Shown here piece by piece: positions 10,381-33,819 of a stretch of 64,000 nt of DNA. The notes beneath the pieces are model-generated. The model saw nothing but the letters and a program-made list of their open reading frames with translations, did no database searches and was not told the origin of the DNA. Position numbers and translations under genes: made by a program. The stretch comes from Fibrobacter sp. UWR3. Its GTDB lineage: Bacteria; Fibrobacterota; Fibrobacteria; Fibrobacterales; Fibrobacteraceae. The stretch's first letter is position 1. Each line of letters opens with the position of its first letter. The DNA is taken from the NCBI RefSeq assembly GCF_900143055.1, contig NZ_FRCW01000003.1, forward strand, positions 310,001 through 374,000, read 5' to 3'.

Positions 10381-11625
10381 ATGCGCGGACTTTTCAAAAA
10401 TATGTATCTTTCGAATGTGCAGAAAGATTTTTCCACATTCGGCCTGGGACTCATCGCGCTAACAACAGCGGCGATGCTTTCTGCATGTTCCGATAGCGAC
10501 AAAACCGCAGGCGGAGGCCCGAGCGGCACCGAGGCAGGTAACGCCATCACAGCGCAGATTACCGTTGCGGGCCAGCCGGCCGCATTCGCACGCGTAAAAC
10601 TCAGCGAAAGCGAAAGCCTTGACGCAAGCGAGAGCGAATTCGCCGAAGCGGATTCCAACGGCAAGATCGTCTTCGAGAACGTGGCCGAAGGCACATACAC
10701 GCTGGAAGCGAAACTCGACAACAAGGCTCTCCAGAAGGAAGTTTCCGTCGAGGGCGACGACGTGGACCTGGGCAAGGAATCCCTCGAAGAGACGGTTTCC
10801 ATCGAAGGTTCCGTGGGCAAGGGCATGGAAGGCACGGTGAAGGTCCGCGGCATGTCGCATTCGGCAAAAGTTACGGACGGCAAGTTCTCCATGGACTCCC
10901 TGCCCGCAGGGCCCATCAGCCTGGTGTTCATCCCGAACGAGAAGGGCGCCGACACGAGCAGCACCTACATGAAGGTTGTCGCGGGCGAAAGTTCCACCGC
11001 GAGCACGTTCGCCGAAGAAAGTCGCGCACTACTGCTTGACGACTTCCAGGATTCCAACTACCAGAACCGATTCATGCCCGCACGCACCTACGATGGCGGC
11101 TGGTGGTATTTCGCCTATTCCAAAGAAAACGTGACCCCAGAATTCATCACCGACACAGTCCAGCACAGGTTCGAACTCGCGGTCGAAGAAGACGGGAACA
11201 TCGCGGCCCACGTGGCGGCGACATTCGGCGAGACCATCAAGGATTCTACCGGCGAAGCCATCTGGCCCTGGGCAACGGTCGGCATTGAGCTCGGCAAGAG
11301 CAACAAGGCTCTGTGCAACGACATTTCTTCCGTGGATTCCATCGCGTTCCGAGTGAAAGGCGAAGGCGCCATCGTTTTCGGCCTCGTAGACGAGACGCAG
11401 AAGAAAGAGGACCAGCTCATCGCGCAGTACGAAATCACGCTCGGCGAGGACTGGGCCCGCTTCAGCGTGCCCCTGGCAGAAATCATCGACCCGCGTTTCT
11501 CGTACACCTGCGTGAACCAGCTCGTGTGGAGATTCAAGCCCAACAACGAAGAAAAGACCGTCATCTTCTGGCTTGACGACATCGAGCTTACCGGCGGCAA
11601 GCGTCTGAGCATCTGGAAGCGGTAA
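10381..11625 (+). CDS. Lipoprotein with carboxypeptidase-regulatory-like and CBM11/CIA30-like domains
   Basis: 414-residue exported lipoprotein with lipobox LSAC and Cys at position 36. A strong GGAGG about 9 nt upstream supports ATG 10381 despite the long n-region; an ATG at 10402 is the alternative. Residues about 55-115 form a carboxypeptidase-regulatory-like beta-sandwich (AGQPAAFARVKLSES...YTLEAKLD) and a second, shorter sandwich follows. Residues about 215-410 look like a galactose-binding/CIA30-type domain (LLLDDFQDSNYQN, GGWWYF, FRVKGEG, VIFWLDDIEL), as in CBM11. A surface sugar-binding role is inferred. Its stop overlaps the trmB start. Confidence 0.75.
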   Translation: MRGLFKNMYLSNVQKDFSTFGLGLIALTTAAMLSACSDSDKTAGGGPSGTEAGNAITAQITVAGQPAAFARVKLSESESLDASESEFAEADSNGKIVFENVAEGTYTLEAKLDNKALQKEVSVEGDDVDLGKESLEETVSIEGSVGKGMEGTVKVRGMSHSAKVTDGKFSMDSLPAGPISLVFIPNEKGADTSSTYMKVVAGESSTASTFAEESRALLLDDFQDSNYQNRFMPARTYDGGWWYFAYSKENVTPEFITDTVQHRFELAVEEDGNIAAHVAATFGETIKDSTGEAIWPWATVGIELGKSNKALCNDISSVDSIAFRVKGEGAIVFGLVDETQKKEDQLIAQYEITLGEDWARFSVPLAEIIDPRFSYTCVNQLVWRFKPNNEEKTVIFWLDDIELTGGKRLSIWKR

Positions 11626-12455
11626 TGTCCGGGGCTCGCGCAGTCACCACAAACCAACCCGATATATACGACAAACTCGAAGAGGTCGTGCGCAAGTACG
11701 CATCGACCGAATACCTGCGCCCTATCGCGGACCATACGCGCATTGCGTTTGCGGAAGCGGAAAAGTTTGTTTTAAACTTTTATGAGCAAAAGATCCCCAC
11801 CTTGGTGGCCATGCGCACTAAACAACAAGTTGTTAAGTGCTGTCCGCCCGCCTGCGCGGGGATGACAAATCAGGGTACAGGGGGCAACGAAGGCGGTGCC
11901 GTCCGCGGCACATACAAAGTAATTCTAGATTCGGGATGCGGCACAGGCGAAAGCACGCTAAACATCGCGATAGCAAACCCGGACGTTCCCGTAATCGGCA
12001 TCGACAAGTCGGCAGCACGCCTCACGAAGGCGGGAGGCGCGGGTTTAAACGGCGCTGCAGGTTTAAACTGCGCCGCCCCGCGAAACGCATTCCTCGTGCG
12101 CGCGGAACTGCTCGACTTCTGGCGTCTCGCCCTCGGGAAGGTCAAGGCGGGACAGTGGCACATTCCCTACCACGCGCTCTACTACCCGAACCCCTGGCCC
12201 AAGCAGAGCGAAGCCACCCGCAGGTTCCACCTGCACCCGATTTTCCCGACGCTCCTGCAACTCGGAGATACGCTCGAACTGCGCACCAACTGGGAATTAT
12301 ACGCGAGGGAATTCGCGGAGGCGGCACGCGTTGCCACGCCCGATTGTTCAATCGCCCGCGAGCCTTTTGACCCCGAGCGACCCATCACCGCATTCGAGCG
12401 CAAATACAAGGAAGCCCGCCAGCAACTGTGGCGGGTTACCATCAATCACGTGTAG
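11625..12455 (+). CDS. trmB: tRNA (guanine-N7-)-methyltransferase TrmB, with an in-frame repeat insertion
   Basis: SAM-dependent methyltransferase for m7G46 of tRNA. Motif I is VILDSGCGTGES (99-110), followed by IGIDKSAARL, and the catalytic region is YYPNPWPKQSEATRRFHLHP (187-206), then ELRTNWELYA and ITAFERKY near the end. The start codon overlaps the stop of the preceding gene (TAATG). Oddity: residues 57-81 (IPTLVAMRTKQQVVKCCPP...) are encoded by two dispersed palindromic repeats inserted in frame between the N-terminal helices and motif I. A second small palindrome (GTTTAAAC twice, flanked by GGCGC/GCGCC) encodes the Gly/Ala-rich stretch at 138-152. The core motifs remain intact, so activity is plausible. 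Confidence 0.8.
   Translation: MSGARAVTTNQPDIYDKLEEVVRKYASTEYLRPIADHTRIAFAEAEKFVLNFYEQKIPTLVAMRTKQQVVKCCPPACAGMTNQGTGGNEGGAVRGTYKVILDSGCGTGESTLNIAIANPDVPVIGIDKSAARLTKAGGAGLNGAAGLNCAAPRNAFLVRAELLDFWRLALGKVKAGQWHIPYHALYYPNPWPKQSEATRRFHLHPIFPTLLQLGDTLELRTNWELYAREFAEAARVATPDCSIAREPFDPERPITAFERKYKEARQQLWRVTINHV
11794..11866. repeat. Composite dispersed repeat (56-bp element plus 24-bp palindrome) inside trmB
   Basis: Bases 11794-11849 match 13774-13829 at 55 of 56 positions. The unit holds two dyads, CCACCTTGGTGG and CACTaAACAAC/GTTGTTaAGTG. It is joined to a reverse copy of the GTCATCCCCGCG-type palindrome (11846-11866). The whole block is translated as part of TrmB. Confidence 0.85.
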
Positions 12456-12461
12456 ATTGAA

Positions 12462-13661
12462 TTACCGGCGGTCGCCCATCCACCGCACGAACGCCTTCAG
12501 GTCCTTCGTCGTCTGGACAGTTACCTGCGATTCCTCGCGTACCAGGAATTCCGAAAGCCCGTACTTGTCGCCACTGGAGCCCCAGTCATACGTGTAGCCC
12601 AGGCGAGTCCACGGGTAACCGCCCTCAGACTTGTAACTCGCGCTCCAGGTATTGTCGAACCAGTTGCGCAGCCACATCCCGAGGCTATCCAGCTGGGAAT
12701 CGTCTTCCTCGTTAAAGCGGCAGGTCATCTCGGAACTCGTGACATCCGGGATATACGCCGGGCGGATCATGTCCTTCGGGGAAACCCAGAACATGGTGAA
12801 GTGCGTGATGTTCTCCTCGCGCGGGAGCCCGAGCAGCTGGCGCAGGCGAAGCGGCCAGTTGCGCACGCCCTTGCTGTTCATCTTGTACCATTCAAGGAAT
12901 TCCCTGTCAGAGAACACGCGCATGTCCTTCGTGACCGTATAGGGGGCGCCGTTCTCGAACTGGTCCGGAGTGGAATGCGCCGCAATCATCAGGACCTTGT
13001 CCTTTTCGGCATTCCATGTTACCTTGTCTGAATTTGTATCCAGCGAGACGAGCGGGCGGATATCTTCGCAGGAACCGTTCTTCGCCGCCTCGACCGCAGC
13101 CTTGTAGTTTTCGGCCAGCAGGGAATCGCGGTTCGCGAAACTCACCTTGCTGCCGTCGGTCTTGAGCACCTCGCAATACGGAATCTTGGACGGGTCGAGC
13201 GCGATTTCCGCCTTCTTGAACTCTTCCTCAATCAGGACGTCATTGTGGTCGAACAACCTGTCGCCCTGCACGAACGAAATCACAATCTTGCAGAGGCCGC
13301 TTTCAGGAATCACGATGCCCGAGGCACCCTTGTTCTCGGATGTGGTATCGAGCACGAACTTGTTCTCGTTCTCGCCACAGTTGTAGCTGTAACTGTAGAG
13401 CGTCGCAGGGCCGGACTTGAGTTCCGCAAAGAAGAAGTTATCCTGTTCCTCGCTCCACGTGGGCTTCACGACAATGGTGGAATCGCCAATCTTTGCGTAG
13501 TGCGGAGTCGCCTCGCTGCAGTAGAAGGCCGCCTGCCGGAATATGCCAACAACACCGGTCTTGCCCTTGAACGCAGCCTCATTCTTGTACTTGTAACTAT
13601 GGGCGCACGCCAAAAGCAATAGCACGGCACCCAGCAAGGCCAACGGAACGATTCTTTTCAT
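12462..13661 (-). CDS. Lipoprotein of unknown function
   Basis: 399 residues with a clear lipoprotein signal (MKRIVPLALLGAVLLLLAC, Cys 19). AAGGAAG lies 8 nt before the ATG, and a TATATTTATG promoter-like element about 30 nt upstream. No domain was recognised. The mature part has scattered cysteines, a beta-rich N-terminal half (FFFAELKSGPATLYSYSYNCG) and a C-terminal half containing LRQLLGLPREENITHFTMFWV and ending in LKAFVRWMGDRR. It converges with trmB with only 6 nt between stops. Probably envelope-localised; nothing more can be said. Confidence 0.75.
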   Translation of the reverse strand: MKRIVPLALLGAVLLLLACAHSYKYKNEAAFKGKTGVVGIFRQAAFYCSEATPHYAKIGDSTIVVKPTWSEEQDNFFFAELKSGPATLYSYSYNCGENENKFVLDTTSENKGASGIVIPESGLCKIVISFVQGDRLFDHNDVLIEEEFKKAEIALDPSKIPYCEVLKTDGSKVSFANRDSLLAENYKAAVEAAKNGSCEDIRPLVSLDTNSDKVTWNAEKDKVLMIAAHSTPDQFENGAPYTVTKDMRVFSDREFLEWYKMNSKGVRNWPLRLRQLLGLPREENITHFTMFWVSPKDMIRPAYIPDVTSSEMTCRFNEEDDSQLDSLGMWLRNWFDNTWSASYKSEGGYPWTRLGYTYDWGSSGDKYGLSEFLVREESQVTVQTTKDLKAFVRWMGDRR

Positions 13662-13773
13662 TGCGACACTTCCTTTTTACGCGTTTGTCATAAATATATA
13701 AGTTTTTCGAGAATCACGCCCGTAAAAATTTGGGAATCCCGGCCCTTTTCGGGGCCACCTTGTATTTGGGCGT

Positions 13774-13829
13774 TCCCCACCTTGGTGGCCATGCGCACTA
13801 AACAACAAGTTGTTACGTGCTGTCCGCCC
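13774..13829. repeat. 56-bp dispersed repeat, intergenic copy
   Basis: Second copy of the element found inside trmB (11794-11849); one mismatch (acgtgc instead of aagtgc). Followed by a degenerate GTCCGCCC...GGCGTGGG dyad. Confidence 0.85.
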
Positions 13830-13843
13830 ACTGGCGTGGGTCG

Positions 13844-13955
13844 GGCTATATTTTATGGGTTGCCCGGTTCTCCACAAAGTGGATAACAGCGACTAAGAAC
13901 TAAAGTTCTAAGTCTTGTATAACTCCGTTCCCGCCCAACCTCATAAAACGGAGCC
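13844..13955. other. Structured 112-bp inverted-repeat element (MITE-like or ncRNA)
   Basis: Outer arms pair GGCT (13844-13847) with AGCC (13952-13955), TTTTATG (13851-13857) with CATAAAA (13942-13948), and GGTTG with CAACC with a single bulged T. Inside are TCCAC-AAA-GTGGA and GACTAAGAACT-aa-AGTTCTAAGTC (one mismatch). This lies in the 396-bp gap 13662-14057, which holds no gene; the rest of the gap is repeats. Confidence 0.5.
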
Positions 13956-13963
13956 TTACACTT

Positions 13964-13987
13964 GTCATCCCCGCGAAGGCGGGGATC
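13964..13987. repeat. 24-bp palindromic repeat GTCATCCCCGCG...GGGGATC
   Basis: Copy of the dispersed palindrome with an 8-bp arm, at the border of the AT-rich island. Related copies lie at 11846, 33795, 49681, 58706 and 59115. Confidence 0.8.
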
Positions 13988-14057
13988 TCCATTGCAAGTC
14001 TCCGCCCCAAGGGGTCACTATCCCTAACGCGAATGAATTCAAAAAAGACCGCTCCTG

Positions 14058-15608
14058 TCAAGTATCCAGCAACCCATAACTCGCAAAGTCAAACGACCCA
14101 TCAGTATTTGGGTTATTGTTTGAAAAGTCCCACGGAAAACCATCTATTTCAGAAAAATATGGATGAGCCAGCCGTTCCGCAATAATGAACCGATTACTGG
14201 GGATTTCTTTTATATTGTTTTCAACATGTTCTCTATGCAAAGGAGGAATATTCGTCCCTTGTGTTGGACCTTGCAGATCCTTGTTTGCATGCTCTATTGT
14301 TGAATGGTAAAAATTGAAATCCGCACCACCGCCGAATGCATAATACATGATTTTCCCTCGATTTTTACGTTGTTCAGCCATTAGTTTTTTGTCCGTATTA
14401 TCAGCAGCAGTTATTCCACGAACGAAGCCACTTCTAAAATCAAGCGATTTCTGTTCTATTTTTGTCAGTGGAGGAAACCCTGAACCATATTTTGGGAGTT
14501 TCACATCCATCTTCTTTAGTTTATCCACACATTCCAAGCGATTTCTTCTATACTCCATAGGATAAAAATCTCTCAAAAGAACTTCTACTCCTAAAGGCAT
14601 AACAGTTTGTGAATATATGCGGGTTTTCTTTTCTCCATTTTCCTGCTTTATTGCTATTGTTGCACAATCAACAGTTCCGCCACCTACATCAAGAATCGTA
14701 TAAATTCCATCATCAGTAGAATGCTTTTCAATAAACCACAAAGCTTCAGCATAGAGTTCAGGAATTGTATCTAAAGACGAATCAGAAAAATTTTCATTAT
14801 CATCTATAAATCCATCTATCGCGTCCACAGATAAAAGTTCAAAATCAGATTGTTGGCTCAATGCAAACCCTATATTCAAAGCTCTATCATAAATACCCTT
14901 ATGTCCATCGCAGAAATTATCTATAGGGCAACCCATATTGAAGAAAAATTTTATATCATCAGTTTTACATTCTCGGCAAATAGAGTCTTTCACAAGTTTG
15001 ATTACTTTCGCTAAATAAAATGCAGAACAAATCAAGCTTATGCTATTCTTGATTTTCGGATTTTTCTCACAAATTTTACTAGCCGCCAAAAAATCATTGT
15101 TTATTAGCCCATACTTGAAATACTCTATTTTTTGAAGATTTTCATCGTTTTTCAATGACAAAGTGTTGTTTTGGGCGGAATAGAATAATACTGAAGGCAG
15201 ATAATATCTTTCGGGATTATTCGTTTCAAATTGAATGGCGAATTTCCCGTAATCTGAGACACTACAGAACACCTTGGTAAAACTCGTTCCAAAGTCAATT
15301 CCAACAATAGCTCTTTTCGATTTGCTTTTTTGGGGAAAAACTATATTTTTTCGTTCAGCATGATGCCGTGTTTTTTTTGTTGTTGAATCTATCACCTTTG
15401 ACGGCCGAATAATTTCGCTTTTATAACGCTCTTGCACTTTAGGAGGCTCGCGCTTTTCGAGAACATCAAACGGTCTTTCTTCCGCTACGGTTTTTACTCC
15501 TGAGGATTTTATTGTCTCTCGTCTATATTTCTCCTGAACTTGTGGAGATTCATGCGTTTTCTCATTTGATGAAAGAAATAAATTCTTAATCAGGTCAAAT
15601 AATTTCAT
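14058..15608 (-). CDS. Hsp70/actin-fold ATPase, partner of a SNF2 helicase
   Basis: 516-residue protein with the sugar kinase/Hsp70/actin fold. Phosphate-1 loop VGIDFGTSFTKVF (102-114), phosphate-2 loop TILDVGGGTVDCATI and adenosine motif YYAFGGGADFNF are all present. No DnaK-type substrate-binding domain or lid is obvious. Residues 1-100 are polar and contain a duplicated motif, VQEKYRRETIKSSGV (24-38) and VQERYKSEIIRPSKV (58-72). It begins 16 nt after the helicase C-terminal segment (15625), so the two were one transcription unit before the transposon inserted. The low GC and location suggest horizontal acquisition. A defence or DNA-remodelling role is inferred from the partner, not from a known family. 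Confidence 0.7.
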   Translation of the reverse strand: MKLFDLIKNLFLSSNEKTHESPQVQEKYRRETIKSSGVKTVAEERPFDVLEKREPPKVQERYKSEIIRPSKVIDSTTKKTRHHAERKNIVFPQKSKSKRAIVGIDFGTSFTKVFCSVSDYGKFAIQFETNNPERYYLPSVLFYSAQNNTLSLKNDENLQKIEYFKYGLINNDFLAASKICEKNPKIKNSISLICSAFYLAKVIKLVKDSICRECKTDDIKFFFNMGCPIDNFCDGHKGIYDRALNIGFALSQQSDFELLSVDAIDGFIDDNENFSDSSLDTIPELYAEALWFIEKHSTDDGIYTILDVGGGTVDCATIAIKQENGEKKTRIYSQTVMPLGVEVLLRDFYPMEYRRNRLECVDKLKKMDVKLPKYGSGFPPLTKIEQKSLDFRSGFVRGITAADNTDKKLMAEQRKNRGKIMYYAFGGGADFNFYHSTIEHANKDLQGPTQGTNIPPLHREHVENNIKEIPSNRFIIAERLAHPYFSEIDGFPWDFSNNNPNTDGSFDFASYGLLDT

Positions 15609-33764: not shown

Positions 33765-33794
33765 TGATAGGTATGCGTCATCCTCGCGAGAAAC

Positions 33795-33819
33795 GTCATC
33801 CTCGCGTAGGCGAGGATCC
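33795..33819. repeat. 24-bp palindromic repeat GTCATCCTCGCG...CGAGGATCC
   Basis: Full copy; a partial copy (GTCATCCTCGCGAG) precedes it at 33777-33790. Confidence 0.8.

Follow-up and report, generated by a model that had tools for sequence, protein, structure and literature searches.

The window, the whole 64,000-nucleotide stretch analyzed here (Fibrobacter sp. UWR3, contig NZ_FRCW01000003.1, positions 310,001 to 374,000 of the forward strand), contains a gene for a TrmB-like methyltransferase that carries a palindromic insert within its reading frame. The insert is built in two layers. The outer layer is a REP of about 25 nt, and the inner layer is a 51-bp hairpin cassette that lies just after the CCCC of the REP. 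The relevant features of the window are as follows.

11625..12455, + strand: TrmB-like methyltransferase paralogue of 276 amino acids, bearing the insert (open reading frame list, PF02390, AlphaFold fold)
11792..11798, + strand: left arm of the host REP, GATCCCC (REP form GATCCCCGCCTNCGCGGGGATGACA)
11799..11849, + strand: 51-bp core cassette of 17 codons, TLVAMRTKQQVVKCCPP, after the CCCC of the REP (boundaries set by pairs of hosts without and with the cassette)
11850..11867, + strand: right arm of the host REP, GCCTGCGCGGGGATGACA (REP match)
12025..12085, + strand: second, local palindrome with two GTTTAAAC sites, lying in a variable loop, outside the dispersed family
13768..13778, + strand: left arm of a second host palindrome, GGGCGTTCCCC (aligned copies)
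13779..13829, + strand: second copy of the 51-bp core cassette, intergenic (repeat match, aligned copies)
13830..13849, + strand: right arm of the second host palindrome, ACTGGCGTGGGTCGGGCTAT (same kind of host without cassette in L099)
13963..13987, − strand: lone REP without cassette, intergenic (REP search)
33794..33818, − strand: REP variant with compensated stem changes, GATCCTC/GAGGAT (REP search)

The TrmB-like gene and its insert

A sequence-only reading of the window had named this gene trmB. The encoded protein matches PF02390 at about 44–45.5 bits (cut-off 24), and another gene of the genome reaches 120.7 bits with the same profile, which makes it a far stronger TrmB candidate. The gene in the window is therefore better described as a TrmB-like paralogue, and any reading in terms of m7G46 must take the other candidate into account. 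With TIGR00091 (cut-off 112.65 bits), the TrmB-like protein scores 32.5 bits, and the other candidate, at 111, also falls just under the threshold. The AlphaFold model of the TrmB-like protein has a pLDDT of 86 and a pTM of 0.82, and a fold search with it returned TrmB structures as the best PDB matches, with B. subtilis TrmB at the top. The cassette accounts for residues 59–75, in frame, adding 17 amino acids, and the blocks covering residues 61–90 form a low-confidence stretch with a pLDDT of 46–56. As judged from this model, the insert sits in a predicted disordered linker of a well-folded enzyme.

The same reading had proposed that a 56-bp repeat fused to a 24-bp palindrome is translated within this gene, between the N-terminal helices and motif I. 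The translation in frame within 11625–12455 was confirmed, as was the repeat itself (positions 11794–11860 and 13774–13840 match at 93% over 67 nt). The unit had to be redrawn, the true one being the 51-bp cassette inside a REP. A second palindrome further on, also described earlier as a dispersed repeat, is present, with GTTTAAAC at 12043 and 12061, and folds (z −2.4). Its dispersed nature is rejected: a whole-genome search with 11700–12150 gave no match over it, the loop that holds it had a repeat match in none of 56 orthologues, and relatives show a local, ATTAAAC-containing duplication at this place. It looks like a local duplication.

The TrmB-like gene is present in 76 of 80 genomes of the genus and in all 40 of the good ones. 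When other strains were aligned, as the sequence-only reading had suggested, the insert was found in this gene only and was absent from the other 55 of the 56 orthologues, so that its residues are not conserved across homologues. The close relatives L009/L133 and L013/L134 have short linkers with intact conserved blocks and no insert. At the same linker place, L135 carries AAGATCCCCGCC, which looks like the left half of a REP.

Sliding 60-nt windows of the 56 orthologues were compared with the collected loci, leaving out the loci of the window gene itself, L079 (which contains its 3' end), L100 and L279. Repeat matches (E 1e-4) fell in the linker in 12/56 orthologues and just before the FERKY motif in 17/56, both counts being lower bounds. 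The NPWPK block had a single match of 26 nt (1/56), and the other four segments had none (0/56 each). The site before the conserved AFERKY motif is a second landing place within the TrmB-like gene. Repeat-like inserts at this site are seen in L010, L015, L016, L021–L025, L029, L030, L033, L035–L037, L044, L045 and L051.

Architecture, spread and hairpin of the cassette

Across 145 distinct aligned rows from this genome and the genus, the cassette core is constant in starting with ACC and ending with CCC, and in nearly all copies it is preceded by CCCC or TCCC. The insert is 51 nt long in 123 of 138 distinct copies and 52–54 nt long in the remaining 15. Most copies read in this genome carry REP arms. 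The host palindromes differ and include GATCCCC...GGGGATGAC, GATTCCC...GGGAATGAC, GGGCGTTCCCC...GGGTCGGGCTAT, GGCGGAGCCCC...TAGGCG, GCGGGGTGTCCCC...GCTAGA and TATGGATCC...GGATGAC; more kinds exist. In the L185 gene, which has the Pfam domain DUF4329 and which we take from its motif to be of RHS type, no palindrome was seen around the cassette. To the right of the core in L081, L108 and L209, the right arm of the REP is extended by further sequence (CTCCCCAAAGAGGATAACTCTACTATGGCAAC...GTTGCCAAGT) that contains a variable palindrome of its own; the hairpin loop may hold another family of cassettes here. At L084:1500–1556 (CCCACTAA...AAGTGG) and L214:836–891 (TTCACTAA...AAGTGA), the cassette has diverged relatives whose arms are changed.

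The 83-nt unit at 11788–11870 has 14 further matches of at least 44 nt in this genome. Two of these are 100% identical over 77–79 nt (E 2.6e-35 and 2.1e-34), which excludes chance as the source of the repeat, and the copies on C2, C9 and C10 are 98–100% identical. An additional 26 shorter matches correspond to REP arms alone. The REP GATCCCCGCCTNCGCGGGGATGACA itself has 108 genome matches with at most three mismatches, many of them in compensating pairs, and the reversed control has none; REPs without a cassette are far commoner than those with one (108 versus about 14). Copies end in GATGACA or, in many cases, GATGACG (TGTC or CGTC on the other strand). In one place (L309, C3:291096–291200), three REPs stand in tandem, 40 bp apart.

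Cassette matches were found in 61 of 80 genomes of the genus (E 1e-5) and in 65 of 167 Fibrobacterota genomes, belonging to 3 of 40 genera (E 1e-6). Per-genome copy numbers are lower bounds, drawn from the part of the candidates that was scored (up to 11 in the genus and 5 in the phylum search). The cassette pattern had no match in viral contigs. Exact matches to the REP alone are found in 13 viral contigs (L383–L395), and in view of these copies this REP may spread beyond Fibrobacter.

The cassette retains its pairing while its stem sequence varies. In the central stem and base, 95.1% of cells are paired and 54 cells are changed on both sides, with a covariation score of 0.183; 500 shuffles gave 0.084 ± 0.007, and slid versions reached 0.064 at best. 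The alignment held 60 of 71 distinct cassettes at 55 nt each, the 11 of other length being excluded. An alternative left hairpin, CCACC/GGTGG, scores the same as GGTGG/CCGCC, so the outer pairing is compatible with either. The 83-nt unit folds at −30.3 kcal/mol (z −2.65), and an Rfam scan of 11500–14600 gave three sub-threshold matches, none at the cassette. The variation of the stem can be attributed to a constraint on RNA or on DNA.

We also considered whether the element is specially built to code, and rejected this, as its 79 nt have 3 open frames against a shuffle mean of 3.13. Since open frames are no more frequent than in shuffled sequence, the 17-codon length, a frame open by chance and selection against broken genes suffice.

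Elements in other genes and paired sites

Copies of the element inside other open reading frames, for which the sequence-only reading had proposed a search, were found both as REPs and as cassettes, in this and in other genomes. This genome has 103 distinct REP instances, the majority outside genes; 33 lie in 27 open reading frames of at least 120 amino acids. A Pfam scan of 24 of these 27 (L319, L339 and L341 being excluded) placed 13 REPs in ten Pfam-bearing genes: a U32 peptidase family gene, HrpA (two REPs), a PD40 protein, GFO/IDH, UvrB (two), CobA-HemD, a THUMP-like methyltransferase, TilS, BirA and a family 2 glycosyltransferase (two). L307 and L348 also have Pfam hits and were excluded, their REPs probably lying before the real start. 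The U32 protein has TrhP as its best NCBIfam match, below the cut-off. Beside its two REPs, the glycosyltransferase gene (L094:1342–2259) contains a run of REP-like peptides (CHPREF repeats), and in the GFO/IDH gene (L317:2–1864) a part of the REP's peptide (SGAECAGMT) is repeated in tandem behind the REP. Long copies lie inside two genes of this genome, the TrmB-like gene and an RlmI/RlmK-like methyltransferase gene.

For the cassette, 19 spanning open reading frames were picked by eye, of which 16 were scanned and 13 had a hit (for L187 a weak PD40 match only); 15 of the scanned frames came from other genomes, and 12 of these matched a Pfam family. L125, L239 and L240 had none, and L123, L177 and L204 fell outside the scan. 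Genes for RNA modification or RNA helicases make up 6 of the 12 domain-bearing element carriers here (U32, HrpA, THUMP-like, TilS, TrmB-like and RlmI-like), and RNA-modification genes 7 of 12 in other genomes (four TilS, RsmB, RlmL-like and an RNA pseudouridine synthase), a grouping that was made after the fact and whose counts stand without a matched background.

Three orthologous gene sites, two in tilS and one in the RlmI-like gene, show the host palindrome both without and with the cassette. At site 2 of tilS, G015 (L374) has 159 nt and G073 (L211) has 210 nt, a difference of 51. Site 1 measures 117 nt in G000 (L353), G015 and G073, where only the REP is present, and 171 nt (+54) in G044 (L379), where REP and cassette stand together with a different left hairpin. 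In the RlmI-like gene, a REP without cassette in G022 (L398) occupies the place at which this genome (L396) has both REP and cassette; the eight further orthologues compared have linkers of other kinds. Outside these genes, host b, the palindrome kind of the second copy in the window, measures 29 nt without the cassette (L099) and 80 nt with it (L166–L168).

TilS is essential in well-studied bacteria. Repeat-like inserts occur at two or more sites of tilS in L353–L382, where its open frame ranges from 101 to more than 1000 amino acids across the genus rows listed, most having about 350–600. Some tilS matches contain internal stops, for example L362, L372, L378 and L380.

Origin of the insert and relation to known systems

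We consider it very likely that the insert is a mobile palindrome of two layers, which occupies a tolerant linker of the TrmB-like methyltransferase and is read in frame. The usual length of 17 codons, together with the frame that is open here, lengthens the protein and leaves the frame unbroken, and the insert is probably neutral. As to how it arrived, we infer a route in which the cassette would enter C-rich palindrome stems in the form of a single-stranded hairpin, moved by an HUH/Y1-type enzyme supplied in trans or else by template switching as the DNA is replicated. Insertions that break genes would then be purged by selection, and those in disordered linkers would remain. In IS200/IS605 and REP/RAYT systems, transposition is single-stranded and takes place next to a fixed short target; IS200/IS605 (HUH) elements have hairpin ends and insert 3' of this target without duplication. 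The positional precision of the cassette, its hairpins and the lack of a clear duplication resemble such transposition. No clear terminal inverted repeat of the cassette was seen by eye, and a 3-bp CCC duplication is indistinguishable from none at all. A RAYT as the mover in this genome is rejected, as a profile search for Y1_Tnp (PF01797) gave no match in it; nor does the family follow the cassette across the genus, occurring in 27 of 80 genomes and being absent from the cassette-rich G010, G063 and G040.

Other origins can be weighed against this reading. The intact frame through the insert and the lack of a stop in the gene would be expected if the TrmB-like protein had possessed the insert ancestrally, with later copying of it to other places in the genome, or if the insert were a structural element under selection in the enzyme. 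Its restriction to one of 56 aligned orthologues, its absence from close relatives, its identical copies between genes and in an unrelated gene, and its disorder in the AlphaFold model make such an origin very improbable. An accidental match within fast-evolving, low-complexity linkers would accommodate those orthologues that have long linkers and no repeat match at all, but we find it scarcely credible against the 100% identity to two other loci over 77–79 nt and the near absence of matches, the one of 26 nt apart, from the five other segments of the gene.

The remaining alternatives concern the element itself. REP and cassette could form one composite mobile unit, the sites without a cassette then being deletions and not ancestral empty sites; the REP arms on most copies read in this genome fit this, as do the three REP-plus-cassette copies that are 100% alike over 77–79 nt. 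It appears rather unlikely, however, given that the same cassette occurs in several unrelated host palindromes, and in the L185 gene without a visible one, and that REPs without it are so much commoner. Retention for a role as an mRNA hairpin, such as a binding or processing site that RNA-modifying enzymes might bind in their own message, would draw on the stem covariation and on the share of RNA-related carriers here and elsewhere (four of the seven elsewhere being tilS). We hold this role to be quite improbable: the gene grouping is post hoc and has no matched background, insert-free orthologues are common, and mobility as a DNA hairpin predicts covariation equally. In our preferred reading, the insert is a mobile palindrome nested in another, and such repeats have the appearance of small mobile DNA which can be taken up into proteins.

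Our findings extend in-gene palindromes to Fibrobacterota, a phylum of important rumen cellulose degraders, and show palindromes of one family landing in those of others. With the paired sites in tilS and in the rRNA methyltransferase gene, it becomes possible to test how so small a mobile element works and how proteins accommodate insertions of this sort. We tentatively suggest that the 51-bp core could be the first member to be recognised of a class of minimal hairpin cassettes, in most cases neutral for the frame, which would enter specifically the stems of other palindromes after a C run and be moved by an enzyme other than a resident Y1 transposase. Such an enzyme could read the variable central stem as structure and not as sequence. 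We regard this as possible rather than probable.

Several known systems share some of these properties. The GC clusters and double-hairpin elements of fungal mitochondria are likewise short, GC-rich hairpins that spread, some of them into genes, but they are organellar. A derivation from IS200/IS605 (HUH) elements may fit the position of the cassette, which is almost always after CCCC or TCCC and compatible with no duplication, but no transposase was linked to it, PF01797 being absent here. Bacterial MITEs (RUP, Correia/NEMIS, ERIC/RU-1) are described in the available text of PMC2229807 as small, non-autonomous and structured, some being fused in frame to genes; the cassette is much shorter, and neither a clear terminal inverted repeat nor an unambiguous target duplication was seen in it.

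Other likenesses are with palindromes found inside genes. Rickettsia palindromic elements, 105–146 bp long (PMC2229807), insert in frame and leave conserved genes functional, according to the available parts of PMC2229807 and PMC3733652. The parallel to Rickettsia drawn from the sequence alone holds for behaviour, namely in-frame insertion into conserved open reading frames that stay open, and is not based on sequence; here a 51-bp cassette is nested in a REP of about 25 bp, in the phylum Fibrobacterota. The parallel is also not unique, since intragenic REPs are known from several phyla (PMC3733652, in the text available). The CGTC/GTAG-tagged REPs of Di Nocera and colleagues are high-copy and mostly intergenic, and some lie within conserved genes, uvrB and tRNA-modification genes among them (PMC3733652). 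The REP described here is similarly short, high-copy and mostly outside genes; on the other strand its ends read TGTC or, in many copies, CGTC. CGTC repeats are assigned there to five phyla, Fibrobacterota not among them, and the word "fibrobacter" occurs 0 times in the main text (PMC3733652). That account, in the parts available, has no nested cassette, and the present genome has no Y1 transposase. Among the titles and abstracts listed by the literature searches, none dealt with Fibrobacter palindromes or nested cassettes. Intragenic REPs and the Rickettsia elements are therefore already known, whereas the nesting, the phylum and a 51-bp cassette in a genome with no Y1_Tnp are new.
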